A stretch of 64,000 nucleotides of DNA from Polytrichum commune (Eukaryota; Streptophyta; Polytrichopsida; Polytrichales; Polytrichaceae), in assembly GCA_950295325.1 (NCBI GenBank), contig OX485806.1, forward strand, positions 15,564,001 through 15,628,000. The letters run 5' to 3'. Shown in pieces: positions 43,791 to 62,067 of the stretch (position 1 is the stretch's first letter; each line of letters opens with the position of its first letter). The translations under genes were made by a program, and so were the position numbers. The notes under the pieces were generated by a model. The model saw only the letters and a program-made list of their open reading frames with translations. It was not told the DNA's origin and searched no databases.

Positions 43791-44050
43791 AAAACCTAAG
43801 AATAATAAGGGTCAAGTCACGACTACGGCCTTCAAACCTAATTTAGGTCCAATGCAAGCAAAATTTTCTCGAAGATCGTCTCAATTCAACAATTTATTGA
43901 AGGAAACATGCATTTTTTTTTTTTTTTTTAATTTTTTTATAGTGGAACTAACTGTACGGAGGGTGTACAAAAGACATCTTTGTGATGTTAGAATTGTTCA
44001 TACAAAATTTCAGTTGTTTGTGTGTTTCAAATCAAAAGATTATAACCATA

Positions 44051-44078
44051 AACACTATATTCGGTAATTGGAGACTTT
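44051..44078 (+). repeat. Left terminal inverted repeat of the 16.56-kb element
   Basis: Twenty-eight bases, one mismatch against the right TIR. Just inside, ATTTTGAGACT (44,085-44,095) is repeated in the same plus-strand orientation near the right end (60,564-60,574). Confidence 0.88.
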
Positions 44079-44359
44079 TTGTTGATTTTGAGACTATTTA
44101 AGGACGTGGCTTTCACATTTGTAGGAAGGAAAACACTAAAAATATGCTATGTTCCCAATTTTGGAAACAAATAAGAGACTCAAATGCATGGAACCACACA
44201 TAAAAATAAGAAAATGGGATATATGAAAACATTTGCATATGGAAAATCAATATCATATTTATTGAATAGGGGTTGAAGTACAAAATACAAGTGGAATATC
44301 CAATATTAGGCGAAAGTCCTAGAAACATAATTCCACAACTACATGTATGTTAATATAGC

Positions 44360-45244
44360 CTATACGTTCGGATCATGATTACGACTCACTACTTTTGCTT
44401 TTGCAATACTATTATTAGCATTTATGGCCGTTTCACGTTCTTTTGCTTTCATGGCCTCCATGGCTCTAAAGATCTCGGGTCCGCGGCTAAAACCTTGTGT
44501 ATTTGTCGACCCCGAATATGTGCCATTTGCCCATATTTGCCGACCCCCTACCGAATAAGTGGAATACGAATGCGATTGGGAAAACGAACGTCTTTCACTC
44601 TTCCGTAGGGCCAAACAACGATCAGACTCGCAAGAAGCAGTCTTCAGTGTTCGCCTATCCAATGACGAAGTCGAGGATGAACGGCCCACATTCATGTGTA
44701 TTGGGGTCTGAAACAATGACCATAAATACATATAATGATGTGGGTTAGTATAAGTTACGGATGGAAGTCCGAAAAACCCAATAATATGAAATGCACTAAT
44801 CCACGGAAATCATGAAGAAAAAACTTGAGAATGCCAATAATTGGGCACCTTGGCCTGCGGGGCGGTGGTTTGAGCTTCTGCGACATCGAGGGGGGCCACA
44901 AGCACAACAGGGACGCTCGTAAACGCCGGGACACCAATTTGGGGTTCATCCATACAAAGGCGTCTGGTCGACCGCGGGTTTCGAACGTGCTTCTCATTGC
45001 GGAGGGGAGATGGAGATGGAGATGGAGCGTAATTGAGTTTTGCAACCTTTGGAGGAGGGCTATCGACAACTCCGTCTTCAAACCCCGAGTCTTTGGAGTA
45101 ATCAACAGCAGAGGCGGCATCGACGGCTGAAAATTGAAATAGTGAAGGCATTGAAATGTCGGTCACACCGATGGAAGGGGAGCTGGGGCCCGGTTTAGAT
45201 GCACACATGCCATAGACGAGACTTTGGGATGCTTGGTGAGGCAA
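44360..45244 (-). CDS. Two 3' exons of the minus-strand element gene (unknown, low complexity)
   Basis: Exon 45244-44849 (acceptor GTGTCTTAG before TTGCCTCACC) joins exon 44707-44360 (acceptor TTGTTTCAG) in phase 0 across the 141-nt intron 44,848-44,708. Together they encode about 247 residues of Ser/Pro-rich, probably disordered sequence with no domain that I recognise. The intron contains a degenerate copy of the element's palindrome (44,754-44,776), as the other introns do. The first exon also starts in phase 0, but the HAD exon upstream ends in TGA at 45,333. The connection is therefore unclear: an alternative isoform, a separate small gene with an unseen first exon, or a transcript broken by the stop codon. 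No start codon is visible. Confidence 0.5.
44754..44776. repeat. Degenerate palindrome copy in intron 44,848-44,708
   Basis: GTTACGGATGGAAGTCCGAAA: the left arm TTACGGA and right arm TCCG are kept, and the centre is altered. It is in an intron, like nearly all the other copies. Confidence 0.6.
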
Positions 45245-45332
45245 CTAAGACACAAAAATACATTTACAAAATACGGGGAGAAATGTTAGATATAAACATG
45301 GAGAGTCCAAGTACAAACCCAAAAAGCAGTTC

Positions 45333-46100
45333 TCATATTAATTTATTGAGTTTGGCATAGCCGTACAACCTCCTAAATTCCTCATCTCTTGGGCCTAGAG
45401 GCCTATTGCCAATGGGGTTGGAGAGGACAAAATCCGGGACACTTCCGGGGTGATAGGCAAGCCTCCTAATGTAGGGTCCTAGTTCATTCTCTAGAAAGTT
45501 GTCATTTCTATCACTCTCCCAAGGATCCGGGAATATGCAACTGCCCAGGGGATTGAGAATACTCTTTGCCGGGCTGTCGTCAATGAAGAGCGTGTTCTCC
45601 GGGGTGGGCCAACAACCGTGGGGCACCCCCTCCAACATAGGGACGCCCACCCAAAGGTTCTTCCTCAGTACCTTTAGGAATTGAGGCCCTCGGCCTCCTC
45701 CGACCTTGGGTACAATGTTGCCATTACAGTCATAAAGGTCATCGCAATGTTCTTGACCGAGAAGCAAGCATGGCATTGTGAGTTCTCGGAAAAGGAAACC
45801 GACGATGGCCTTCGTGTTGTCCATGAGCATAGAGCTCCAGATGATGACATGGGCCAAGCCAAGGACATCACGAAGGAAGCACCTCAACCCCGGCCGGGCC
45901 CGTACAACCTTCTTGTTAATGAGAGTATCGAACTGTCCGCCGTAATCCATGTCTTGTGGACTACGGAAGGGACCCTTCGACGCACTATTGGAGATATGCA
46001 TGGAATGACAAAGCACCCCATTGAGGTCAAATATTATGAACGGTTTCCTCATGGGCCGGCTTGGTCTTTCAGCGGGGTTGCGACATATCTCCGACGGACC
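45333..46100 (-). CDS. FCP1/NIF-type HAD phosphatase-like domain exon
   Basis: Begins after a clear acceptor (CCATCACAG at about 46,101-46,109) in phase 0 and runs 255 codons to TGA. HAD motif I is FIIFDLNGVL (D25 of the exon; the usual second aspartate at +2 is Asn27). Motif II is IIWSS (about 86-90), and the acidic motif is LFIDDSP (171-177). The arrangement resembles the FCP1 homology domain of CTD and NLI-interacting-factor phosphatases, about the right length. The D-x-N variant may weaken phosphatase chemistry, although similar DLNG forms exist in plant FCP1-like proteins as I recall. An in-phase donor (GAAGAG before GTAATC, 46,441/46,440) lies upstream at the end of the ParB/methylase ORF. 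This exon is therefore probably the C-terminal domain of that protein, giving 1,614 aa in total. If it is independent, ATG at 46,052 would start a 239-aa protein. Confidence 0.75.
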   Translation of the reverse strand, partial: GPSEICRNPAERPSRPMRKPFIIFDLNGVLCHSMHISNSASKGPFRSPQDMDYGGQFDTLINKKVVRARPGLRCFLRDVLGLAHVIIWSSMLMDNTKAIVGFLFRELTMPCLLLGQEHCDDLYDCNGNIVPKVGGGRGPQFLKVLRKNLWVGVPMLEGVPHGCWPTPENTLFIDDSPAKSILNPLGSCIFPDPWESDRNDNFLENELGPYIRRLAYHPGSVPDFVLSNPIGNRPLGPRDEEFRRLYGYAKLNKLI

Positions 46101-46394
46101 CTGTGATGGAAAATACTATCTAGGTGAATGGTACTACCCATGAAAACCAATTGACAAGCATGCACAAACTCAACAAACAAATATAAGGCAAAAAAAATAC
46201 GAATACGCAGTTCAAAAAATTTGTATTAATGTGATTGGTTTAATACATTTCGCGAATAATTTACATTGTCACAAAAGGTCTCCCCTAAAACTAATTGAAT
46301 CTATGCTGGCAAAATTGCATCCACCCGCTGGGCGAAGTCGAGCATCGAACTCGACAATATGTACACGCCACGAAGTTGGCAGACAAGGAAGTTT

Positions 46395-46408
46395 CGGACG
46401 CGCGTCCG
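46395..46408. repeat. Palindrome copy in intron 46,440-46,101
   Basis: Core CGGACGCGCGTCCG with flanks TTT and TAA, matching the family half-site TTTACGGACGC with the left A missing. It lies just downstream of the proposed donor at 46,440. Confidence 0.85.
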
Positions 46409-46425
46409 TAACGTGGGAGGCAAGC

Positions 46426-49400
46426 TCAAAGGTGGATTACCTCTTCAGCGGAGAGGTCCTCGCCAGCAGTGCCTCCCTCACCAGGCCCCATCGTGGGCAC
46501 AGGTGCCGGACGCGCGTCCGCAAAATTGTGCATGCTATCCTCCACCACCAAGGAGCCTCCAGCCGCTTGCGACCCCTGGGTATCGACATGAGGTTGATCT
46601 TCATCTGTGGTGTCTTGGCTGCCCCGCATATGTTCATCTTCTTGGCTGCCCCGCATATCTTCATCCTCTTGGCTGCCTCGCATATCTTCATCTTCTTGGC
46701 TGCCAATGGTTGTGATGTCTTCAATGGCGCCTTTCTCGTGAGCACCTGCCGTATAACGTGCAGGTCTCTCCTCCTCTCGTACGCTATGAGAGGAGGGCTC
46801 TGGGGTGTCGGCAACCTGGGGAGAGGGCGGGACATACAAGGCGGGGGCTGGATAGGTATGCTCTGGTATGTACACCGTATGGCTACTAGACGGAGGCCGC
46901 ATGAGAGTGGGAGGCATCGACATGCCGGCTTCGGGAGCTGCATACATTACTGGGGGTCTTGCTTGCAAGCTCTGCATGAGGCTCATAAATTGTTGGCTCT
47001 GGGCCAAGAATTGTTGATTTTGAGCCATGAGATCGGCGTGCCTTCGAGCAGACTCCAACCTAGCCTCCTCCATCTCAGCTTGGATGGCGGCCATCTTTCT
47101 GGCGTGCTCCTCGTTAGCTTCTCGAAGCCGTTGGTCAAGCTCTTCCTTCATTCTTTTCTCCAGTTTCTCGTCCAATTCGGCCACAGACATCGGCTCTTTC
47201 TTCACCTTGCCAGGTTCAGAAGGCAAGGCAGAGAGGGCATTGTACATCCTAACCTCATCCTCGTCTTCATCGGAGAGTTCCAAGACGGCGCCTTCAGGGT
47301 ACTCGTTGTAAGGAGTCTTCTTTCTCTGTCGACGACTCTCACGGTATGAGGCGATATCCGGCCTCAAAATCAACTCCAGCACATCTCTACCCTCCATAGG
47401 TGGTAGCTCTGCCTGTTCAGACCCCCCTCCAGATGAGGCTGTGCATCCGGCTTCTGTCGCAACGTCCACATCCTTCTCTGCCATAAGCCCAGCAGCACGC
47501 GATGGACCCGCAGTGGAAGGAAACCCAACTCGAGAAGTGGGAGTCCCAAAGGGAGAGGAAATAGGGGTAGGATGGACCCTTATTGGAGTGAAGTCTTCCT
47601 GCGCCCCCTCTGTATCCATGTGGTCTTCGCCCAAGACAAATTGATGAGGATGAACAGGATCACGAACAAGGCCGGGCACGTGATCTTGTCTGGCTGGCTG
47701 CTCTCTTGGGGAGACGGCCTCTTGGTCTCCGTCACTGTCCCACTCCGTCGCAGGAGTTCCCTCTTCTCTTGAGGCAAGAGGCACCACAGGATGGGGGGTA
47801 AGGACATCGATGATGTCTTCGATATCTATTTTCGAGGCAAGAACCCTATGAGTATTCGCCTCATCCATGTCGCGAGCCTCCACAAACGAATTTACCTGCA
47901 ACCCAAGCATCTGCACCAAAACAAGGAAATTATAGTCATTCCATTGTTGCGAGCAAGTATGAGGACAAATATAATCATGAAGCACTGCAATTTACGGACG
48001 CGCGGCCGTAAATTTACACTGCATATTTGTGTGGCCAATGTTACGGATGCGCGGCCGTAAATTTCAATTCAGATGAACCATGGAAAGAGGTGCATACAAG
48101 TACTTACCAATGCCGCATAAACAAATTTGGTGCCTCCGAAGACGTTGTAAACTGTTTCACTCATCACAGTCACAGCCTTCAAGACTCCAATATAAAAATC
48201 CATTCGGAGTTCGTACGCCGGGTAGATTGCATACATAGTCTCCGCGACAAGCTCCTTGGGGTGTGGTGGTGGCAACGAGTATACTTTCTTGAACACGTTC
48301 TGCGCTTTGATAGGCATCCGCCCACTTGGTGAAGACTTGTGTGTCAAGAAATAAAGTGCCAAAGCCCCGACCTGCTTCGCCCCTCTTGCCTCTTCAATAA
48401 CACTGATCCCTTCCGTCTTCGCGGGGATGTATGTGCTGTGGTAAAGATCGTATTGGAGGTTCATCGTCGATGTGTAAAGCTGGACGACCGATGCGGACCT
48501 CTCTTGATCTACGATCCAGAGCCACACATTTGGCTCGAAGAGGGCAGGCGACCGATAGCTCTTGAAGGCCTTGAAGAAGTTGTCATAGAAAGCGGTCCCG
48601 CTAGCGTTTTGTCTCCAAGATCCGGGAAATGCACGGAAATCAAATAGTGCGAACGGACAACCCCGGGGGTCATCTCTCACAGAGGCTTTTGAAGCATGTG
48701 TGTCCCATGTGCCAAACTTCAAGGCCGTTGTAACAGTGCAGAATCTTACGACCCCTTCGAATTTTGCTTTCTTTTTTCTGTCAAGGAAATGGACGTACAA
48801 CGCCGTCTCTCTTTCGTCGATAGACCCTTTCTTCTCGTTCCTCCTAGATCTTTGGGCTAGGAAGGGAGATGCGCCTTTTATCAATGATCGCATGGAGACC
48901 CCATTGATGTGATATTCCTCCTTGAGCGTCCTCCAGTTTTCCCACATTATTTTACCATCTGTATCAGTGAGGTTGTGGGAGGACAGCAGCTTGCTAATTT
49001 CCCTTATAGCCATGGTCTTCTTCTTCCTGTATTCACACCATTCTTTAATGTGGTACGTGGAAGGCTTCATGTGCTTCGGCCGCTTCAGGAAGATTTTGGG
49101 GTAGGGCAGTGTCCTCCTCGGAGTCTCCAATAGGATGTGTTGTGCCGCTCTGTACAGTTCGGAGTCGAGCAATCCTTGGAGGGGACGAAAGAACTCTCTC
49201 AGGATAGGTGGCACCTTAACCTTCGAGTCGCTCTTGTACGTGTTTTCTGCATCCGGATTGATAAGGTCTCCGTTGTTGTGGGCATCGAATAGGCGCAACC
49301 AAATTGTCCATGTCTCTTCTGTGGCGGTGATGAGCTTAAGTTCCCCCTTCAGCTCCTGCACCGTCTTCATGCCGCTTGTCTTCAAGTCAATGCTGGAGAA

Positions 49401-50831
49401 CTTTGTCAAGATGGCATTGCTGAATGTCTGCAATGCCATGTATTACAAGAAATCAGCGGAGCTTAAATCAAATGAATTAAAGAATTGGAAGGAGATGGGA
49501 AGAAGTTTACGGACGCGCGTCCGTAAAATTATACTGAGACATACCTGCCATTTGGGATTCTTGATGACTGCATTCTCCCTCTCTTTTGGGGGACAATCGT
49601 GCTCTACCCACAAGGTCCTTCCAGCCACGATGTTGGCAGCCCATGAAGCCTCGAACTGCCTCACTTTATTCCCTTGGTTCATGAAGGCAGATATTGCGAT
49701 GAGCTGGTTCGAGTCTTTGGAATGGACGACGAATGCCTTCCAGTATCGGATTGTCTCTTTCAAAGGGCTCTTCCACTCATCGTCCTCTAGGAGAGCTTTT
49801 GCAGCCATCACACTATGTTGGCCGTCGACTATGTAGAACTCTCCATCTTTGAGAATTGGCCAGTTTTGCGCTGTGACTTCAACCACAGGATCCTTTGGTG
49901 TCACACATATGGTTTGCCTATCAAATTTGGGGTTGTTCATAATGTTATTCATTTGCCACCACACCCCGGTCTCTTCTTTGGCACGAGTATTCATACTCTC
50001 CGTGCCCTTGTGGCATTTGTAGACATCCACATCAAACGTGAAATATCTTCCAAGTGGCCAGCAGCCCTTTGTCTTCTCGTCGAACTCTTGGAAAATCTTT
50101 GTGGAAAGTTCGGCGTCAGGGCGTTGTCCTTTCTTCAGGAGTGGTGCGACAGTAAGAGTAGAGCTCACATCTGGACCCTCTGTTAGCCATGACGACTCCA
50201 TCTGTGAGTGGGAGCGTTTACTAGTCTGCTTGCTCCCTCTTGATGCCCCACTCTGTGAGGGTCTCGAGGCTTCTGGCACGTGTTTAGGAACACGTTTAGG
50301 TCGTTTAGTAACTGGTTTTTTCGCCTTTCCTTTCTTGGCTTCCAGTAATGCCCCATTTACTCTTGTCACATTGTTCAAGAGACGTCCAAGCCGTTTACCC
50401 GTCCAGGGTGCATTGCATGCATAGTCTTGGAATTCATTCTGTAAATTGAAGCAAGACGCATCTGGGCTGGCATTTTCACATTCATTTTTGTTGAACGGAT
50501 GGTACAACTCGTGCAAAATGAATGTGATCCTATCATTTTTCTTTTCAAGGTCAATGACAACATAATCACCTTGGGCTATCGCACACTCTACTGTCCAGTT
50601 TTTTACCTTCATCCACTTCTCGGATTCATGTATATCTGCTTTTATTTGATAGGCAAATCTAAGGACAAATATATCATTTTCGTCTTTTTCTACAATAACT
50701 GTCCAGTTATCTACAATGTCTTCGCGTGGCTTGTAATGGTCGTTGTGGCTTATGTCTTTGATGGCTTTTGGAAGCGGAGGATGGACAAGCTCTGCGAATA
50801 AATCAATAGCGGGTCTTTTTGTAAATTCCAT
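46426..50831 (-). CDS. ParB/DGQH-like domain plus DNA-methylase-like protein with disordered tail (three exons)
   Basis: Exons 50831-49545, 49427-48108 and 47910-46441, all phase 0. Without splicing on to the HAD exon, the frame stops at 46,426. Exon 1 (residues 1-429) has a basic NLS-like stretch at 166-183 and FYIVDGQHSVMAAKAL at 332-347. The latter resembles the ParB/Srx-fold and DGQHR signature (D-G-x-H-R, then AA). Exon 2 (430-869) contains YDNFFKAFK..LFEPNVWLWIV (710-735) and ends VYNVFGGTKFVYAAL, which continues into exon 3 as MLGLQVNSFVE. Across the junction this matches the SAM-binding motif of N4-C/N6-A DNA methylases (DxFxGSGT..AA..LGR). The expected catalytic DPPY/W is replaced by DFRAFPGSW (692-700), so activity is doubtful. 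Exon 3 (870-1359) is acidic and disordered, with a coiled coil at about 1112-1185 and a GSQEDEDMR tandem repeat. ParB-methylase fusions are known in phages; here one lies inside a plant transposon. Confidence 0.7.
46507..46520. repeat. Exonic palindrome copy
   Basis: CGGACGCGCGTCCG inside the coding frame of exon 3, translated as part of ADARPAP. It is the only copy that falls in predicted coding sequence, and its outer arms (TGC/GCA) are also inverted. Confidence 0.8.
46612..46707 (-). repeat. 27-bp coding tandem repeat
   Basis: Three to four units encoding GSQEDEDMR in the ParB/methylase gene's acidic tail. Units differ by single substitutions (one has EDEH). It lies within exon 3, in frame. 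Confidence 0.85.
47991..48060. repeat. Two palindrome copies in intron 48,107-47,911
   Basis: Copies at 47,991-48,012 and 48,041-48,060. Both have the variant centre GCGCGGCC instead of GCGCGTCC. They sit between a strong donor (GTAAGT at 48,107) and the acceptor TTTTGGTGCAG (47,911). Confidence 0.9.
49506..49527. repeat. Palindrome copy in intron 49,544-49,428
   Basis: A perfect 22-bp palindrome (TTTACGGACGC plus its reverse complement) centred in the 117-nt intron between exons 1 and 2 of the ParB/methylase gene. Confidence 0.95.
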
Positions 50832-50886
50832 CTGCAAATGTAAAATATACAAGTCAGTATTAAGGTCTGGGAATGCAGAGCCTATC

Positions 50887-51503
50887 TTACGAACGCGCGG
50901 TCGTAAACCTTTGCGTACCCTTTCCTATATAATGTGGTTATGTATTATGTTATAGTACATGTCAAGTTTACGGACGCACGTCCGTAAACTTGAGATATCT
51001 TATAAAAAGAAATCACATACATGATATATGTCCAGAGTTTACGGACGCGCGTCCGTAAACTCTGCACATATATCATCTAAAAGTTTCTATTTCTATATTC
51101 TATGAATATAATATGTTTTTTATTATTATGTAGCCCTAATTTACGGACGTGCATCCGTAAATTCTTGGAAAATAAGTTCATTTTTGTTGTGTAGAACTTG
51201 TATATTTTGTAGAACTTATTTTGAAAACCCATGACATGTATTATACTCTGAGATTTTCATAGTTTTTGCTGCCTAGTTTACGGACGCGCGTCCGTAAACT
51301 CTGCACATGTATCATGTACCACATTTAGTGTACTTAGATATTTCAAGTTTACGGACGCACGTCCGTAAACTTATCATTCATGTTTTTAAATAGTTCTTTT
51401 TAAATATATCTACAATTTACGGACGTGCGTCCGTAAACTGTTCACACATAGTGCGATGCATATTCCCAGGGTTCCCTGAAGTTTACGGACGTGCGTCCGT
51501 AAA
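50887..51503. repeat. Cluster of eight palindromes in the 5' intron of the ParB/methylase gene
   Basis: Copies at 50,887-50,906, 50,967-50,988, 51,038-51,059, 51,140-51,161, 51,277-51,298, 51,348-51,369, 51,416-51,437 and 51,482-51,503. Consensus is half-site TTTACGGACGC followed by its reverse complement. Spacing is 60-140 bp, in AT-rich DNA. Several extend to arms of 15-16 bp (for example TGAAG before and CTTCA after the copy at 51,482). The whole cluster lies between a probable donor (51,759) and the acceptor at 50,832, directly before the ATG. Confidence 0.95.
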
Positions 51504-51759
51504 CTTCAGGCCATTTTTTAATTACTCTAAATTTAATTACTTTGCACAATTACTGTGTTTCTGGATATTGCTCCGAAATTTTCGGAACAGGTTTTTTGTT
51601 GCATTCCATTCATGTGCAATGTTCATCTTTACTTGGAATGCAACATGGATTTGCACTCCAAATTAGAATATATCAGGTGTTGCATTGCAATAGCAGATTC
51701 TACACTCCAAACTAAGAAGAATGTTCCATTTCAATTTGCAATGTACTAGAAACACTTAC

Positions 51760-51805
51760 CTTTGTACAATGTTTGCTGCTCAACTACAGCTGCAGCTAGG
51801 ACAGA
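51760..51805 (-). promoter_or_regulatory. Probable small 5' UTR exon of the ParB/methylase gene
   Basis: Acceptor TTAATTTGCAG (minus strand) followed by 46 nt and a consensus donor AAG before GTAAGTG. It would splice to the exon beginning exactly at ATG 50,831. It contains no ATG and so is non-coding leader if used. Confidence 0.5.
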
Positions 51806-52289
51806 CTGCAAATTAACAATAAAATTGAAGTTAGAAACCTCTGGTAATGCAATGTGCACATTCAAGATTCAACTAAACTGTGTGTTGCTCCTAAAATGCA
51901 TCAAACCCACCAAAAAAACCCTACTACAAAGATTGCACTGGATTGAACATTGACATCAGATAGAAGTGAACAAAGCAAAACATATGATTTCTTAGAACTT
52001 GGAAAAAGTGAATTCAAGTGAAGTGAAGACAATTACAAACTGAAAGGAGGAGCACTCTGAAACAACTGAAATACTCCAACCCTAAAACCCTTGCAACAAC
52101 TGAAACTACTCCATTAATGTCCTAATGAGACTGCAAGCAAAAAACTACTCAATTTTTGATGTTACTTGCAATTGTGAGTGCAACAAAACATTGCATGCTC
52201 ACACAATACTCACAATCCTCCTCTTGTGCATCAATACATAAACTCAAATCACCTAATTAGCACCTGGAACAGCACATCTAGCAAAGAGG

Positions 52290-52640
52290 GAAAGAAAAAA
52301 ACACCTGCCTGGAGCTCCTGGCGCTCTTATGGAACTAAAAGCAAGGAGGAGGAGAAACAACAAAGGAAGAGCAAGGAGGAGGAGAAAGAGGAGAAACAAC
52401 AAGAAGGAGGAGGAGGAGAAGGAGGACCAACAAGGGAGAAGGAGGACCAGTAATAGTAGCAAGGGAGAAGGAGGAGAAGGAGGAGCAGCAAGGGCGAGGA
52501 GCAAGGGCGAGGAGGAAAGGAACGATGGTGGGCGAGGAGGAAAGGAGCGAAAGGGAGTAAGCGAAAGGAGCAAAATGAGCAAAAAGGAGCGAAAGGAGCG
52601 AAGAGCAAGGGAGTGTATCGAAACCCTAAACCCTAAACGT
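52290..52640 (-). promoter_or_regulatory. CT-rich leader and telo-box promoter region of the minus-strand element gene
   Basis: On the minus strand, 52,320-52,610 is a long CT-rich tract such as is often found in plant leaders. It is preceded by AAACCCTAAACCCTAAA at 52,621-52,637, a double telo-box. A possible donor (GGCAG before GTGTTTT) lies near 52,296. The overlapping charged ORFs in this tract on both strands are artefacts of the purine repeat. Confidence 0.45.
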
Positions 52641-55600
52641 CACATCCACTCCCTACCTAGACGTCCCATCAACCCGCGCCCAAAGGCCACATGTAACCCT
52701 TACGTGGCATATGTCTATTGGTCTATTTTGTGATTGCTAGAGTCCACCCTCGATAAATGTTACACTTCCACATGTTAACTCATAATTGTATTTGTTAACA
52801 AATTCGTACTCCTCTCATATTGCTAACTAGAATGTAAACTTTGTTACATGTTAAGAATAATTTATTCCCCTCTTTGTTAATTTGCCACTTATAAATGTTA
52901 ACCTACGAACTACATCCAATATTGTGAGATGACATCCATTACATTGAGTCACAACCTTTCAAAGTGGCAAAAGCCACCAAATTTGACTTTTGTGATCAAA
53001 TTATTAATATGGGTTATATTGTGATTGATACACATATTTTATAATTTATAATTTTGCAAAACTCTCCCTCCATAATTGTAATGAATTAAATTTGTTAAGC
53101 ATTCAAAAAGCTCCCTTTATAGTTGTTACAATGTTAACTCACAATAAATGTAAGGAAAATTATATTCCAGAGCATAACATTTATAGAGGATGGATTGTAT
53201 GTGGTGAGTCCAAAAACGAATACCAAAAACAATTGCTGACCAAAAATAAAGGAATCTCAATGCTCAAATTATAATAACCATCTAGGCCCAATAGTAAACA
53301 TAATTTTGAAGTATGGGTTGAGGTTGAGTAACTCAAGTGTAAGATTTTCTTTGTGGACTTGTTGTAATATGAAGGTAAGCGGGCTTTAAATTACTAGTAC
53401 ACTAAATATTATAAGTAGTATTGCTTAATATTTAGAATTATGGAATGCTATATTAACTATTCATTGTATATTATGTCATTGGCATCAATTAAATAACATC
53501 AATAATAAAAAAGATAAAGCATTTTGTAATTTTTTACCACAAAGGTGGGATTCAAATGCAATTGGGACAATAATATACCCATTGGCCAAAAATTCAATTA
53601 ACCCTAAACCCCTACACCCTTATGAATCCCTCAATTATCGCAATAATTTGTGAAAGGGGATTTTCAACCTAAATTATACTATCAATAGCAACTTGGGGAC
53701 TTTATTGAAGTTGGACACTTGGGATGCTTTGATGTGAATATCATTATTAATGATATTTAAATTAAGCATGTTTGAAACACAATTAACAAAACCAAACATC
53801 GAGATAATATGGGTTAAGATCAAATGCTTATAATATCTTAAACAACGTTAGGGGTTAATTCAATCCCTCTGCACATAGGTCTAAGCTTGTATTAGAACAA
53901 AAGGAATGGGTAGGTGTTGAATTTACATCCCTCTTGTCCATTAAACAACCTTCAGGATTCATGCAATCCTTCCAAACCTAGGCATGAGCTTGTATTATCG
54001 CCTATAAGTAGTAGCAAATTGTTGTTTATATTGGAGTTTTGTTTCCACGACATGTATGGTTGTGTTAAGTATTCGATTATAGAATACCAATATATGATGT
54101 TCAAAACCTATCTTCAAAAGTAAAGGTTTAAAGCAAATGGATAAATATGACTTAGAACATAACTTTGATGATCTTAAATGTTTTGAAGGCTTAATTGTTT
54201 TCATATTGTATCCCATCAAAGAATAACAAGTCTCGGCTAAATCTTGTACTTGCCTCTAAGGGGTGGATTTTACCCAGGCAAACAAAGATTAAAAAAATGA
54301 AAGGTAAGGTTACGCAACCCATGTACCTTTTTCCTTAGCCAAATTAAGACCACATATTGGATTGCCATTCACAATTTGATAAATCTTTGTTCTATGTCAC
54401 CTACTTTTTCACCACTTACCATGTCTTCAAGAATAATTTGTAAACATAAATTTGCTTGACTTTTGAAATCTTGATGGTTTTGTTTTAGAGAATTTTAAGC
54501 CTTGACATGAGTCGGGAGTCGTTTATAGGGTTTAGGGTTTAGGGTTTAGGGTTAAGAGTATCCCCCTTGTGTCACCGACTTAATATTGGTTGCCTTATTA
54601 CTATTTAGATACCCTACCCTCCCTTTCTGTCCATTATATTTTATGGGTTAATAGTATTACGTAGAACAACAATTGGTATAATTGTTTGCTTGCTTGTTTT
54701 GAATTACTTTCCACTTAAGCCTTGACATGTATCAGGAGTTGTTCAGTTAACCATGCTTGCATCTCTATGTCCACATGTTTGTTTAGGTTTGGGTGGTTAT
54801 AGGGTTTAGGGTTGAGGGTAAGAATGTTACTTGGAGCAACAATTGGTATTGTTTGAGTATTAATTAATGTAGGTAATGTACATGAGGTACTAAAATATGT
54901 TTTTCCTCACGTATAGTACATGAAGAAGGCTAGTATAATTAGTTTTTTTGAAGTAAATGTTGATGTACGGAAGGGGCCCCTAAGGTTTAGAGAGAAAATT
55001 GATAATATTGAATTTAATGCAACCCATGTTACCTAGGACAATAGATGTGCTACTATCATGGCCTTACGGTAATCAAAGTTTCTGTATCAGATATGAATAC
55101 AATTATGTATAGGTGTGTATAGGTGGGTAAATTAAAAATGTTGGATGGTTAGGTGGTGGCCAATGTAATTATAATATTAAATGCAAGATGAGAGGAGATA
55201 GCATGATATTATGGTCAATACCATTACATTGTATGCAAAACAATAAAGTAGTTGCTAATTTAATTTTGATTACATGTATTTTTATACTCCATGTACTATT
55301 GTTGTTGCTAATTTAATTTTGTTGTCTACGTTTTTTAAAATGTACTCTTCATATTAGGTACTCCAATATTATAAACCACCCCTCAACAATGTTTATTGCT
55401 CATATAATATTAACCAATTTACTTTGTTGTATACCACAAATACATAGATGCCTTTTTCTTTGTCATTATGTGGACTCATGGTCTATGCATGTAGTCCACA
55501 TGAATACACATTCCATTGTAAGGCTGGCATACGGAATGTAGTAATGCTAGGTTTGTATTTATAGGACATAGTTGGTGGCTGGTATCCTATGTTGGAAAAC

Positions 55601-55660
55601 GGATCCAAGGTAAAGCGATCAGTACTTAAGGGGACACCCCCCACCGTCGGGACTTTTTTT
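52640..55660. other. Central AT-rich spacer between the two divergent units of the element
   Basis: No exon chain or domain on either strand. It holds plant-type telomere repeats (54,525-54,553, four TTTAGGG-type units; 54,799-54,815, shorter). It also holds a diverged direct duplication of about 220 bp (54,498-54,690 and 54,717-54,860) that shares AAGCCTTGACATG, GGAGT.GTT and CAACAATTGGTAT. None of the palindromes found in the flanking introns occur here. Confidence 0.55.
54525..54553 (+). repeat. Interstitial plant-type telomere repeat inside the element
   Basis: About four consecutive TTTAGGG units. A shorter related run is at 54,799-54,815, as part of a local duplication. Confidence 0.9.
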
Positions 55661-55669
55661 GCATCTCAG

Positions 55670-55717
55670 CTGTGGGTTGCGCTCTTGTAGTGTGCTCCTG
55701 CTACAGATTTTGTGCAG
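55670..55717 (+). promoter_or_regulatory. Probable small 5' UTR exon of the transposase gene
   Basis: Acceptor TTTTTTTGCATCTCAG, 48 nt, then donor GCAG before GTAAAG. It mirrors the small leader exon of the divergent gene. If used, the following intron (55,718-56,886) contains the seven palindromes of the right cluster. A diverged partial duplicate of this exon lies near 55,795-55,870. Confidence 0.4.
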
Positions 55718-55894
55718 GTAAAGATCCTATTGCAATGGACCTATTATACCCTAAACCCCAAGTCCTGAGCCCATTAGGGTACACAATTTGTATTTGGGTT
55801 GCACTCTCCTTGTAGTGTGCTGATTTTTTTAAAATTTCGGACAGTTATCCTTTCTGGTGCAATGATCCTATTTTCACGCCGCAAATCACGGAGA

Positions 55895-56747
55895 TTTACG
55901 GACGCGCGTCCGTAAACCTTAAACATATTGGTTCATTGAACCTTTATTTGTTTGAGCCAATACTCATGTACGTTGAGGTTTACGGACGTGCGTCCGTAAA
56001 CCTGCATACCTTTGGTGCTATAGTTCTGTAGGTCACCTACACCACCTGTCGTGTAGAGCACCACAACGACAATATATTACCATGGAAGTTTACGGACGCG
56101 CGTCCGTAAACCGTAAACCCCTTGGCGCGTTGGACATTGTATTTAGGCTAGTAATGATGTCCACAGAGGTGTATTCCATCGATCACTGTCTTTATGCTAG
56201 GAATGAGGTCCACAGAGGTTTACGGACGCGCGTCCGTAAACCTGGAAAGCTTTGTTACCATAATGTGCCATGTAGACTGAGACTGCAGTGAGACTGCAGT
56301 GAGACTGTACGGTCATGAAGGGTTGGGAGCTCGCATCCCTTAGCCTACATCACCCTATGTGTCATACTATAATAATTTGACAGTGATTAAACATTTTAGG
56401 AAGCGCGTATGGCCGTGTTCAAACCTCTTCAAATTTCATGAGTCGTCAGGCTTGTGTATACATGGCCGTGTTTGGAGGACCTCTTGCTTCCTTGAACCTC
56501 TGTCTAGGACTACATTGATGTTTGTCATACGGATGTTTACGGACGCGCGTCCGTATACCTTTGTTTTGGTTGAGGGTTTAACTGAACTCTGTGTACGAGC
56601 CGATTTACGGATGCGCGTCCATAAACCAGTGATGTTTTTTTTGCCTCCTCCTTTCCGCTCCTATGAACACATCAATGTATCCGTATGCGCGTGTGCTTGC
56701 GCTGCTGATGTTATTACATGGAGGTATACGGACGCACGTTCGTATAC
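55895..56747. repeat. Cluster of seven palindromes upstream of the transposase start
   Basis: Copies at 55,895-55,916, 55,979-56,000, 56,089-56,110, 56,219-56,240, 56,536-56,557, 56,604-56,625 and 56,724-56,747. The first four are perfect or near-perfect 22-mers. The last three have paired or unpaired changes (TATACGG arms in the last). All lie within the presumed 5' intron ending at the acceptor TTTTGTAG (56,886). Confidence 0.95.
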
Positions 56748-56891
56748 CAATGCTAGCTTTGTTTTCAAGCCATGAAATCCACTAGTGTTCACATTGTGTT
56801 TCATTGACAATAATAAGCGTTAGGGCTATCCATGACATTTATTGAATGGGATATTTTGACATACTCTTCATTTGGCTCTTTTGTAGTGGCC

Positions 56892-59800
56892 ATGGATTCC
56901 AACGTCGGTGATAGTGGGGTTGATTTTTCGTCGGAAACGTCAAGCTATGCTAGCGAGTTTGAAGTTGTCGTGGAACAAGAAACTACAATTGGTGTCGCCA
57001 ATGTAGAGGATGAATTCCTCCCACCATGTGAGGGTTATTCCCGGGAGCAGTGGATTGATCTTGATGTCGTCCTCCTCAATGGATGTGGCGTCCCCGTGGC
57101 TGATGGTGTTTGTCGGAACTCGAATCCTACGGATTGTATTGATGCAAATCCCCTTGGGGAAGAAGATGTGGGGGTGTGCATTTTGAATTCTTTACATCCG
57201 TTGGAAGTGCCTTCTGGTTGGAGATTCTCTCTTCGTCGATGGCCGTTGCGCAGTGTTCTTCATGATGGTGTCAGCTTGTGGAATCATTCCCGCCGTTTTG
57301 ATCAAATGCAATCGGCATTGTTCTCCACAATGCGCCCTAGAATGGGTCGGCGTAAATATGATTCCGTTCGTTTGCCTCGTGAACCCACGCAACGTCGTCG
57401 AGATCAAACATTGGGAGATGCATCTATTAGGTCCGTAGCAACAAATGATTGTTGTGCAAAGAGATGTTGCCAACTATTTCCCCGTGACAAGATCAAATCT
57501 TTGAGACAAGAGATGTGGCTCGCGGACTTTCGTATGCGATCTGCAAAGAAACTTGAAGTCCATCGCAACATGCATCTTGATGTCGAAGGTCGTAAGGTTG
57601 TGACCTTGGAAAATGTCGAGATATGTTGCAAGGCATGGTACATTATACATGCAGTTTCAAAGGCAGATTTTTATAGGTTCCGGAACTACTCGATGCAAGG
57701 ACGCCGTTCTCGGTTCCATGGCAACTCTGGCACAAAGAAGCCTAGGGAGGCAACACTCCAAGCGGCTGCAACACTATCAACCATCATTATGCCATTGGCA
57801 GATGCGATGCCACACAAGACGCGAACTCTGCCGTCGGGGGAAAAGGTTGTTCAGATGGTTTTGCCTACAGGGACAAAATGGAAGAACATACTTATGGATG
57901 TTAATGAAATTGGCGAAAAGGCTGGATGTGGGCCGATTTCGTTGTCAAAATTGAGTGTGATCAAGAATCAACAATTCGCAGAATACATTACGAAGAGACC
58001 TGGGGATAAGTTTGCCAGGTGTTCTGCTTGTGAGAAATATAAAGGCCTTCGAGATGCACATCCCATTGGGACTGAGTCCCACAACCGACATCAACTGAAA
58101 TACATTGAGCATGTCAACAACCAGGAGGCACACCGTCAAGACTACTACAAGAATCGCGCATTATCGATAATGAGGCCGAATGAGGTTTTGACAATCATTC
58201 ATGACAAAATGGACCATGCAAAGACGGCGTGCCCTTGTTATGCGCGGAAAATAAAGGCTACAGATGGATATTTCAAGCTTCCAATATCTGTCACAGGTTT
58301 GTTGGTTTTCACATTTATTTTTTGCGCGCCCACATACTCATTGTTAAGATTTACGGATGTACGTCCGTAAGTGTACATTTTTTTGCTTGCTTGGGGAAAT
58401 TTTTGAATTTCATTCATATATACGATTTGTGTGGCTAAATGCAGGTATGATCGCACATGGTCATGTGGACGTGAAATATGCACATTATGGCTTGGATTTC
58501 TATCCTGGCGACGCCAATCATACCGTAGGGTCTTTTGCAAAACTTCTACGAGATCTTGAGAGTCCGCCCACATCATCCTCTCGTGCTCTTTTTGTTGGAT
58601 GTGGAACAACACCGATTTATGAGGCTGTGCTAGAGGGGAAGGAGGTTTGCCTATCTTCACTGCAAGAACCGCCTGAACAACCCGTTCTTGCTAAACCTTT
58701 GCCTCCAACTCTACACGTGCAACTTGACAATTGTGCCAAGGACAACAAATGTCGATACGTATTTTGTTTTTGGTCATTGCTCGTAGCCAAGGGCATTTTC
58801 AAAGAAGTGTTTGTGTCTTTTTTTATGGTTGGCCACACGCACGATGACATTGACGCTTCATTCGGACGTTGGAGTATGAAGTTGCACGAGGAGGATTTTC
58901 CCACAATTCCTCTTCTCATGAAATCGTACATGGATTTGGATAATGTGCCAGTCATCCCGCATTTGATTGAAGAAGTGCCCGATTTCAAATCGTTTATCAA
59001 ACCATTCATTCTTAAGGGAGGTGACCGCTTAGTGGGCCATACCAAGGCTCAACAATTCCGATTCTATATGCGTGATGATGGTCTGCCGGCCATGCAATTC
59101 AAAGTTTTGTGTACCTCCCCGAATTGGGGCCCAGAGGAAGGGATACTCGTATGGCGCCAAAACGAAGATGGCAAATGTATGCTACCTGATGGGGAGCCGA
59201 AGCCCTGCAAACCCAACCCCATGAGGAATGGACCAGAAATCATCAAAGGTATATCTGGATTCATCGAGTACTGGAAAGATTTGTGCGAGGAAGACATCAC
59301 AAGACGTGTTCGGGATACCCACGAACCATTGATTGCGTATTGGGATCGCATCCGCTCAGCGTTGCTAGCACCCGAAGACGATAGACCATCATGTTTGACA
59401 CAAGGTTTTTGGCCACTAAGCCGAGTGACAATCGTGGAATCTGAGGCCATGTTCTTCAACAATGGGGACGTTCGTGAAGAGTTCGCGGCGGACGACCATT
59501 ATGTTGGCCCTGCTCGTAATCGCCCGGCTCCATCATTTCGTGTGGCTATTGATTGCTACGAAGGTTATATGGTCCTCGTACGTCCTGGAGATGAGGAACA
59601 TCCTAAACCGATTTGGTTGGTGAAAGCATTGTCATCACCAAATTTTGTTCCAACTAGCCCAAATTTTCGTCAAATTGAGGTGGAATATTGCCGTCCAAGC
59701 ACCAAAGATCAAAATATGTTCCGCACATATTTAGGGTGGGACACGAAAAAAGGTTTCAAATGGACAATGGACTCAGCATACGAACCAATATGGATAAACA

Positions 59801-59967
59801 CGGATACCATACTTTGTGCTTGGAAACCACGCAAAGGTTCCAAAACTGAAACAATGACCATCCCCCAAAAACATATAGATTTTGCCAAAGACAACTTGGC
59901 ACGTATTGCTGCTGCAGAAAACAATGTCGAGAATGGAAATGAAGCAGAAGATGAAGATGGTGAATGA
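56892..59967 (+). CDS. Putative RNase H-like transposase (DUF7869-type, GHTHDDID motif), two coding exons
   Basis: Exons 56892-58296 and 58445-59967, 975 aa. The intron (148 nt) splits a Gly codon in phase 1 and contains a palindrome. I chose ATG 56,892 because it follows an acceptor (TTTTGTAG, 56,886) by five bases in a strong context (GCCATGG). An in-frame ATG at 56,832 would lie in the intron. Seen: a Cys-rich segment CC..RCC (187-193), possible zinc ligands C377xxC380, FKLPISVTGMIAHGH across the splice site (461-475), NHTVGSFAKLLRDLE (493-507), QLDNCAKDNK (561-570) and GHTHDDIDASFG (598-609). D438 (IIHDKMD), D563 and D603/D605 make a plausible DDD/E triad. From memory this layout matches a family of uncharacterised eukaryotic proteins with a GHTHEDID signature. 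Transposase function is inferred from the triad and from its position in a TIR element. The tail is acidic. Confidence 0.8.
58350..58370. repeat. Palindrome copy in the transposase intron
   Basis: TTTACGGATGTACGTCCGTAA, with TpG/CpA at the central CpG positions. It lies in the middle of intron 58,297-58,444. Confidence 0.9.
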
Positions 59968-60091
59968 TATTGACGTAGGTTTGGACCAAAGATATTTGAA
60001 TGTGTATTGGTTTTTCATAAAATATATGACATTGGGGTCGAATACTATATTAGACACATTTTATAGCAATTTTATAGATTACAATTATATT

Positions 60092-60367
60092 GCATGGATG
60101 CATTGATTTACGGATGTGGAATCCAAATGTTTTTTATGTTTGTGTTTTTACGGATGTGGACCCTAAACTATATAATTATATTGCATGGATGCATTGATTT
60201 ACGGATGTGGAATCCAAATGTTTTTTATGTTTGTGTTTTTACGGATGTGGACCCTAAACTATATAATTATATTGCATGGATGCATTGATTTACGGATGTG
60301 GAATCCAAATGTTTTTTATGTCTGTGTTTTTACGGATGTGGACCCTAAACTATATAATTATATTGCA
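60092..60367 (+). repeat. 91-bp tandem repeat, three units, near the right end of the element
   Basis: Units begin at 60,094, 60,185 and 60,276 (ATGGATGCATTGATTTACGG), nearly identical (one T-to-C difference near 60,320). Each unit has two half-sites, TTTACGGATGTGG, related to one arm of the element's palindrome. The ORFs at 60,094-60,448 are read-through of the repeat, not genes. Confidence 0.9.
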
Positions 60368-60578
60368 GATGCTAATTTGCAATTTCGTGTCATTGGAATA
60401 TTGTGTTGGCATAGTTTTGATTATCAACTGAATAATTACTATATTTAGAAACATATATATTCATCACATATGGATCTTTAAAACATTATGTTGCCATTGT
60501 TCCCCATGTTCCCCATGTTCGCTACGTTCACAATATTCGCATCCGAAACTACGGGTCCAATTTATTTTGAGACTTTCC

Positions 60579-60606
60579 AAAGTCTCCAATTAACGAATAT
60601 AGTGTT
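60579..60606 (-). repeat. Right terminal inverted repeat of the 16.56-kb element
   Basis: Reverse complement of the left TIR with one mismatch. A small hairpin GAGACTTT-CC-AAAGTCTC overlaps its inner edge (60,570-60,587). CATA follows at 60,607-60,610. Confidence 0.88.
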
Positions 60607-62067
60607 CATATATGTGTACAATGGTATGGTTGGACAAAGATAGATGTCTGGTCAAGAAAGTCAATTTTAAATTTTTGGGGTTAATCGCTCATGGGCTACG
60701 GTAAGTGGACCATAATCAAACACTTTACTCTTTGCACCCACTTCTCGTAGGATATGAAACACACAATTAGTGCAAGACATTTAGCAAATCCAAATCGTGC
60801 TCTTACCCATTTTCCTCATAATTTGGAAGTTCATATGAATGTATCCTATTTGTTATGAAGGCGAGGATTCATGTGCTTTCCTCCCCAATTATGATGATTA
60901 TTGAGTCTAGAATAATCAACATATTTTGAGCATGTAGCCTCTTTTGAACACATGCCTTTCTGGTGTCTGTTCTTAATCCACACCTACCCACACAAGACTT
61001 TAATATAGGTGTCCACATTTTGGGGGCGATTGCATGAACACCGGTCTACCTTAATCGGTAGAGAAATATTTTTGTTGATCTAGCCAATTGTGATTGGGGG
61101 TGGGGTTTAGGGGAGGTTGAGAGCCCATGCAAGCTACTTTACCTGTTCCAACATTTGTTTCAAAATCACTATAATTGCTTCTACTGACTTGGTGGTTTGT
61201 TACTTGACAAAGAGGATCAACAAATGTGGAAAGAGGCTTTTGAGAGGACTCCATAGATCATAGCATTTGTGTTAGATTAGAACCCAACTAGAAAAGGTTT
61301 ACACTTTCAAATGTCATTTAAAATTTTAATTAGAAACATTTTTATTTTAAAAAAACCTAGGAGTATTTATTTTCACTTCCTTGGAACTAAAAAAAATTAT
61401 AACCACAAAAAAGTAAAAGAAATGCACTCCAAAATCGTGTTTCTTAGAAATATTTCGGCAACACCAAACCAAGTTCTAAGGATGCTGACCCTAGGGTGCT
61501 ACTAACTATAGTTGCCCGTGACTTTAGAAAATTGTCATTCACAAGTCTAGGTAACATCATGAGTTGGGCTTACTCACTACAAATGTATGACACACAAGCA
61601 ACACATCATGTGTCTTTGACAAAACATGCAAATCTACCATAATCATGATAGGTTTACCAAATAGCATAAGTTTGTGACGCATGACAATTTTCATGGACTT
61701 AGGATGTGCTGCCCAAGTCTCATATGTTTGTCATGATTAGATATGTTTAATTCCAATTGACTTGGGTTGGAGGAGGTTGTTGTTGTTGTTGTTGTTGGAT
61801 CGATGGATTTGTTGGTGTTGTTGATATGAAGTCCTTGTGTACCCCAAACCAGAGGCTTGCCACATTAGGAGGACACCAGTTTCAAAGTGATTTTCACATG
61901 TTCATGTAAACAACTTCCATTGACTCCCAATTTTACCCTTGGGGTGGCAAACCCTACCCTATAAAATTAATTATTTCTGAATCCCATCTAGTGTTGCATC
62001 TAATGGGATGCATCATTTTTCCTGTTTTGTTTTTTTTCTTTCACAAAGAGGCGCTCCAATATCATGC

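Follow-up and report, generated by a model that had tools for sequence, protein, structure and literature searches.

The window analysed here is a 64,000-nucleotide stretch of the Polytrichum commune genome (C4:15564001-15628000), in which a complete terminal inverted repeat (TIR) transposon of 16,556 bp (44051..60606) carries a transposase gene, a long divergent accessory gene, called the second gene below, and a palindrome family of its own. The element is bounded by 28-bp TIRs, AACACTATATTCGGTAATTGGAGACTTT at the left end (44051..44078, plus strand) and AACACTATATTCGTTAATTGGAGACTTT at the right end (60579..60606, minus strand; an inner hairpin adjoins it), and by one copy of the target-site duplication (TSD) CATA on either side (44047..44050 and 60607..60610). 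The two TIRs were equal at 27 of 28 positions, the sole difference being G/T at position 14. These ends and the 4-bp repeat had been described in a first-pass annotation, which took the element for an autonomous plant DNA transposon, and searches of the genome (408 Mb, 64 contigs) bore this out. With position 14 left free and up to 3 mismatches allowed, the TIR pattern gave 1383 forward and 1374 reverse matches, against 0 and 0 for the reversed-pattern control; assuming two ends per copy, the family may number up to ~1,380 copies, a value that counts ends and not full-length copies. Twenty other facing end pairs, 7.5-45 kb apart, were taken from the perfect TIR matches listed for contigs C1-C3, a sample biased to intact ends, and an identical 4-bp TSD, without fixed sequence, was found in 17 of them; one further pair had a single mismatch (CTTA/CTTG) and two did not match. 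Empty sites were sought by joining the flanks of three pairs with one TSD copy in a single query. Among the 40 candidates scored, of 362, the junction of the first construct was crossed by 39 (97-99%) and that of the third by one (98%), and none of the 40 belonged to the second construct. Additionally, one element was found inserted in a tandem repeat, the neighbouring unit of which showed the unoccupied site (L017/L018). The window element is a complete, mobile and very abundant TIR transposon, and ordinary single-copy host genes were ruled out by the many TIRs, the TSDs and the empty sites. WRKY exons, which are typical of plants, occurred at 34 places in the genome and fit a plant host. For comparison, four copies with the same TIR were read, flanks included (E30492, 19.1 kb; E27947, 17.4 kb; E57013, 18.3 kb; E11461, 14.6 kb), together with three further groups, F474, F502 and F692.

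Both genes were spliced by GT-AG from the sequence, not from RNA, and the two long divergent multi-exon genes of the first-pass annotation proved to be open in the window copy, with products of 975 aa for the transposase and 1614 aa for the second protein. The transposase gene has two coding exons on the plus strand, exon 1 running from the ATG to the donor GTTTGT (56892..58296) and exon 2 (58445..59967) holding the DUF7869 domain (QLDNC...GHTHDDID) and a barrel-like C-terminal part. What had been called a transposase of an uncharacterised family matched Pfam DUF7869 (PF25273) in exon 2 with 134.5 bits; this domain was not named in the literature searched, and Transposase_21 (tnp2) was absent from the Pfam matches of the eight exon frames scanned. 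The LDNC and GHTHDDID motifs were kept in most aligned transposase rows and form a candidate RNase-H-like DDE/D core. The AlphaFold model of exon 2 was poor (pLDDT 46) and matched mostly barrel folds, in its C-terminal part only (59539-59883), where SH3-like barrels of MazF, the MSL3 chromo barrel, PWWP and BAH were found (VIA-align Z 5.0-6.3, poor model); the end of the transposase may, according to this model, be a chromatin-reader-like module. An RNase-H fold was not among the listed structure matches of the poor model, from which its absence does not follow. A more distant DUF7869 frame, ~31% identical (L057, C7:2070500-2080499), belongs to a group that scores higher against the Pfam model (186.5 bits) than the window family, and its stretch was without window-class palindromes, the only class tested there.

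The second gene runs on the minus strand in four coding exons. Exon 1 (49545..50831, 429 codons) is weakly ParB-like around VDGQHS, exon 2 (48108..49427, 440 codons) has a predicted amino-methyltransferase-like fold, exon 3 (46441..47910, 490 codons) is a poorly conserved linker with repeats, and exon 4 (45333..46100, stop at 45333-45335) encodes an FCP1/NIF-type HAD domain with motif I DLNGVL. A 27-bp tandem repeat in exon 3 (46613-46704) encodes a repeated GSQEDEDMR stretch. The extent first given to this gene was confirmed except at its far end, where two more conserved minus-strand reading frames (44360..45244; tblastn 84.7% and 96.6% in E27947) lie behind the HAD stop and perhaps form a separate small third gene. 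The HAD assignment itself was recovered by Pfam (NIF, PF03031), with 45.5 bits in the window and 34.8 bits in F692 against a cut-off of 21.8, and the WSS and DDS motifs were kept in six aligned rows; a PDB sequence search with this exon by itself yielded no HAD chain. The ParB-like call survived in weaker form. ParB_N (PF02195) was not among the Pfam matches of the eight frames, nor was it one of the six families with listed matches to the 9 exon 1 rows of profile A1 (E <=10). PHROG 1033 (ParB-like) was matched by 3 of these 9 rows (best E 0.009) and by none of the F502, E57013 and F692 exons scanned. When exon 1 was compared by hhalign with four ParB domains encoded on small contigs of bacterial appearance, P was 0.0074, improving to 0.0016 (probability 16%) on addition of the distant F692 exon 1, which suggests a weak ParB likeness. 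Profiles A1 and A7, searched against PDB sequences, found nothing below E 0.09; a match of profile A8 to a designed cytochrome trimer (E 0.00014) was the sum of three weak stretches and was taken as chance. A search of viral contigs only gave 22 pattern matches, which included no relative of the ParB exon.

The DNA-methylase likeness claimed for the second protein was supported at the level of fold, in a poor model, and the modification activity attached to it became doubtful. The best Foldseek match of the exon 1-2 model was CcrM (E 0.05, probability 0.96), and 49 of the 50 rows listed by VIA-align for model residues 690-908 were methyltransferases (Z 5.0-7.2, poor model), mostly of N6A/N4C or MT-A70 type, with six C5 enzymes. 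At the expected motif IV (DPPY), the position of which was read from the model, the window protein has DFRA, with NVFGGTK at the C-terminal end, and the aligned families read DFRA, DFRG (E57013), DFRN or DTRF, not (D/N/S)PP(Y/F/W). Because the catalytic DPPY is absent, methylation activity of the second protein is unlikely. Elsewhere in the genome scan, PF02195 was found at 4 places, all on the small contigs C10, C12 and C23 (L064-L066, L068-L071), which hold bacterial-looking ParB, methyltransferase and ParB-methyltransferase frames and are probably bacterial DNA in the assembly. A nuclear 577-aa frame with a methyltransferase-like end (DIPD, LDLFVGTGA) was present at no fewer than 3 places, one of them L067 (C4:44111740); none of the listed DUF7869 matches was seen beside it, and its hhalign comparison with exon 2 gave P 0.12.

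Each family studied was found to have its own dyad, made of an arm, 2 free bases and the reversed arm. In the window, 21 sites lie within 4 mismatches of TTTACGGACGCGCGTCCGTAAA, and 20 of them are noncoding (binomial p = 6e-6); with up to 6 mismatches the window copy holds 22 sites, where shuffled cores averaged 0.0 (0.0-0.05 across tests). Eight of these unstranded sites stand before the second gene or at its 5' end (50886..51503) and seven correspondingly at the transposase gene (55895..56746), about 6.8 kb from the left end and 3.9 kb from the right end of the element, respectively. The introns of the second gene hold a perfect palindrome in intron 1 (49506..49527), two palindromes in intron 2 (47991..48061) and one in intron 3 (46391..46412). 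Two degenerate sites, with 4 mismatches each, lie in the transposase intron (58350..58371) and in exon 3 of the second gene (46503..46524), the latter being the sole coding one of the 21. A possible splice acceptor immediately adjoins the 5' side of the second-gene ATG, and another stands five bases ahead of the transposase ATG; both 'promoter' clusters may therefore lie in introns of the 5' untranslated region (UTR). Genome-wide, perfect palindromes numbered 1147 for TTTACGGACG-nn, 2909 for TTTACGAACG-nn, 9731 for TTTGGGTCG-nn and 819 for CCACGGGTG-nn, 14,606 copies in the four classes together, with 0 in every reversed control; chance was ruled out as their origin by these controls and by the shuffled cores. 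The centre two bases vary freely in the listed rows of the two largest classes, and the arm sequence is constant within each family. Within the element, a 91-bp x 3.1 tandem array (60083..60367, unstranded, units 99% identical) holds the palindrome half-site-like TTTACGGATG, and a plant telomere-like repeat, (TAGGGTT)4, lies between both genes (54526-54553).

The private palindrome family had already been noticed in the first-pass annotation; its privacy to each family and its joint change with the second gene had gone unseen. At F502 and two F692 loci, none of the other palindrome classes was found at <=2 mismatches. Among the matches listed, window-class sites formed seven clusters on C1, six of them within elements with a ParB-exon match. 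E57013 and E11461 share the unchanged 28-bp TIR with the window, the next bases differing. Their transposase exon 2 is 85% identical to that of the window and exon 1 70-77% (70% in E57013), and the four exons of the E57013 second gene reach 44%, 52%, 31% and 61% identity. The two sister palindrome classes differ by one base per arm, and sites were compared through the 18 shared arm positions. The discriminating base pair was A/T in all 50 sites of E57013 and E11461; the 85 sites of four window-type elements had 76 G/C, 3 A/T and 6 other pairs. Such a uniform and symmetric change at all sites would be expected if a dimeric protein had changed its specificity, and it is the second protein that changed most. 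Selection was measured by the ratio of nonsynonymous to synonymous rates (dN/dS). Six exon comparisons between subfamilies had a measurable dS, and their ratios were 0.06-0.15; the nearly identical transposase exon 2 of the window and E30492 gave 1.10 from very few changes, and substitutions were saturated against F502 and, in the second gene, against E57013.

The divergent layout of transposase and second gene was kept across copies and groups, with two exceptions, E11461 and the first F692 locus. For F474 the left TIR was found with two mismatches (right end outside the stretch read), and F502 spans 18.1 kb between near-identical TIRs with AAAT on both sides. F692 has a 29-bp inverted repeat starting GGGGATATTAAC, the flanks of which form no duplication, and its second gene was read at another locus (L072). 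Identity to the window was 33% for exon 1 and 41% for the HAD part in F502, with the same layout, and by tblastn 22% for exon 2 and 34% for the HAD part in F692. The F502 palindromes form clusters at both genes and occupy second-gene introns, as in the window, and placement is alike in F692, where exon 3 holds one or more sites. Upstream of the F502 transposase (~C5:45712810-45714310, L060), twenty palindromes follow each other at a nearly exact spacing of 78 bp, a tandem array like the targets of VANC, an accessory protein of Arabidopsis transposons discussed below.

Because the palindromes and the second gene change jointly, the second protein is the candidate reader of the palindromes. The explanation considered best, with a probability of roughly 0.52, is that this protein binds the palindromes of its own family and keeps the genes of the element open, as a self-directed form of anti-silencing or transcriptional control. 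The DUF7869 protein, presumed to be the enzyme of a cut-and-paste mode, would act at the 28-bp ends and make the 4-bp duplications. The 1614-aa accessory protein, as a dimer, would recognise its own palindromes (two 9-10-bp arms, 2 free bases) in the 5' regions of both genes and in introns. Its methyltransferase-like part, having lost the catalytic motif, would probably serve DNA reading or protein contacts, and the FCP1-type HAD part might target RNA polymerase II or chromatin proteins at the palindromes. In four window-type elements, 88 sites were examined for base changes. At CpG positions, 45 of the 49 changes were C>T or G>A, compared with 11 of 70 elsewhere, which is, judged from the pattern of changes, a signature of methylated-cytosine decay. 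Because the sites hold CG pairs and decay like methylated DNA, the second protein would keep the genes of the element open against host methylation, in a manner limited to copies with its own address.

Several observations weigh against this proposal. The ParB likeness of exon 1 is weak, exon 2 is without a sequence match, and the AlphaFold model of exons 1-2 is poor (pLDDT 39); Foldseek with this model gave no match at E <=0.001, and Z values below 8 possibly reflect just a common arrangement. The HAD motif I reads DxN (DLNGVL/DVNGIL) and not the catalytic DxDx(T/V), in E57013 the first Asp is missing too (YLNGVL), and a HAD match is missing altogether from E11461; not every copy, then, has kept this part. 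The first F692 locus has palindromes and lacks a second gene within the 18 kb covered, F692 exon 1 went unmatched by tblastn and was located from its position and GQH motif, and the window-class cluster at 25.98 Mb on C1 had no ParB-exon match among the 87 scored. The CpG excess counts related copies repeatedly, and the centre pair is possibly free. The 3 A/T sites stand in window-type elements, and the fall of transposase exon 1 in E57013 and E11461 makes the contrast between the genes one of degree. The proportion of synonymous differences (pS) between the window and F474 was 0.23 for transposase exon 2 versus 0.59 for second-gene exon 1 (0.61 for transposase exon 2 in E11461 and 0.79 for second-gene exon 1 in E57013). 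Because synonymous divergence differs between the two genes, modules were probably exchanged between elements, and in such exchanges the palindromes may have been carried along by the second gene or by neighbouring DNA; they would still be tied to the second gene, not necessarily by binding.

Four rival explanations were also weighed. The transposase could itself bind the palindromes, as internal sites comparable to the subterminal repeats of En/Spm, the second protein having another role. Subterminal arrays of transposase sites are known, the clusters stand beside both genes, and transposase exon 1, a possible DNA-binding part, diverges as well. Nevertheless, this reading was judged unlikely, since the TIR stays identical and the transposase better conserved while the palindromes change, and since the clusters lie kilobases from the ends, with four noncoding sites in second-gene introns. 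An active DNA methyltransferase that marks its own element, as proposed for algal ParB-methyltransferase transposons in the accessible part of PMC12477816, would agree with the fold-level match to amino-methyltransferases in the model; the tetrapeptides found at the expected motif IV instead of DPPY/W, and the non-significant hhalign comparisons of exon 2 with bacterial ParB-methyltransferases (P 0.4 and 0.24), make it more doubtful still.

The combination of palindromic multi-site arrays with a weakly ParB-like region also recalls parS, and the protein might cluster or segregate copies, or join the ends of the element, with no control of transcription. Integrated elements need no partition, however, the sites lie beside genes and in introns, away from the ends, and no ParA-like Pfam match was found among the eight frames scanned; such a role appears improbable, a little below that of an active methyltransferase. 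The lowest rank was given to palindromes that work as RNA, forming hairpins in introns or the 5' UTR that guide splicing or small-RNA processing. All noncoding clusters are possibly transcribed, and possible acceptors stand before both start codons, as this idea would have it. Hairpins, in contrast, need neither one arm sequence nor change along with a protein, and each family keeps one exact arm sequence, with centre bases free in the listed rows of the two largest classes; a function as RNA seems slightly less probable still.

A broader view can be put forward tentatively, with somewhat less confidence than the best explanation above: a eukaryotic self-address system, in which ParB-like, dead-methyltransferase and polymerase C-terminal-domain-phosphatase-like modules would form one sequence-specific regulator, with a 20-22-bp dyad re-coded genome-wide in each family and thousands of orthogonal sites opening only their own chromatin. 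Four versions of the likely targets, with 14,606 perfect copies in all, can be read directly from the DNA, which makes the idea that such proteins act on their own element directly testable. If this is true, VANC-like self-targeted anti-silencing would have been invented a second time, without relation to the first; the system would also show protein-DNA specificity switching in nature, and orthogonal DNA-binding modules for use in plants might be drawn from it. The literature searched, mostly without subscription papers and two key algal sources, contained no mention of private palindromes or the HAD fusion.

Among known systems, the Sola (Sola1) superfamily makes 4-bp target-site duplications. 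The element shares this feature (17 of 20 pairs, CATA in the window and AAAT in F502) and has TIRs, and a Physcomitrella Sola1 is listed in the table of a review, as far as its text was accessible (PMC9033089). Like EnSpm/CACTA transposons, it has ends that contain CACTA and many internal repeats; unlike them, it shows a 4-bp and not a 3-bp duplication, AA before CACTA and a DUF7869 transposase, and membership was ruled out by the 4-bp duplication and the lack of Transposase_21. The order of a ParB-like and then a methyltransferase-like part, and the presumed palindromic target arrays, are as in bacterial and phage ParB-methyltransferase fusions and ParB-parS; in contrast to the bacterial proteins, the ParB likeness is marginal, the methyltransferase is not significant by sequence and the catalytic motif is missing. 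VANDALs are Mutator-like transposons, and the VANC-type domain corresponds to DUF1985. This domain was not among the Pfam matches of the eight frames (E <=1), and the second protein is no VANC by sequence. The accessible part of PMC5735166 describes the VANC protein of Arabidopsis VANDALs as an accessory protein with short binding motifs, which recur in noncoding stretches of its own family and co-evolve with the protein. The moss-borne system would resemble it in having an accessory transposon protein that is a predicted binder, a motif in noncoding parts and a joint change of both; the VANC21 motif, YAGTATTAY, is no long palindrome, unlike the 20-22-bp dyads with a free centre found here (PMC5735166, same part). 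The closest counterpart, according to the accessible text of PMC12477816, is Sola1-1_Ec32 of Ectocarpus, a 21.5-kb TIR transposon with an opposite-strand gene for a ParB-like and N4C/N6A-methyltransferase protein; similar green and red algal proteins are cited there, and binding and modification of the own transposon are suggested. As far as that source was accessible, it names no target sites, and the word stem palindrom is absent from its main text. Both elements are large TIR transposons with a further gene opposite the transposase, putatively ParB-like and methyltransferase-like in the window element, and the kind is already known from the opposite-strand genes of algal transposons (PMC12477816, accessible text). 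The window protein differs from that of Sola1-1_Ec32, as described there, by its added FCP1-type HAD part and degenerate methyltransferase motif, and the element by its plant host and its arrays of private palindromes, which are new here.

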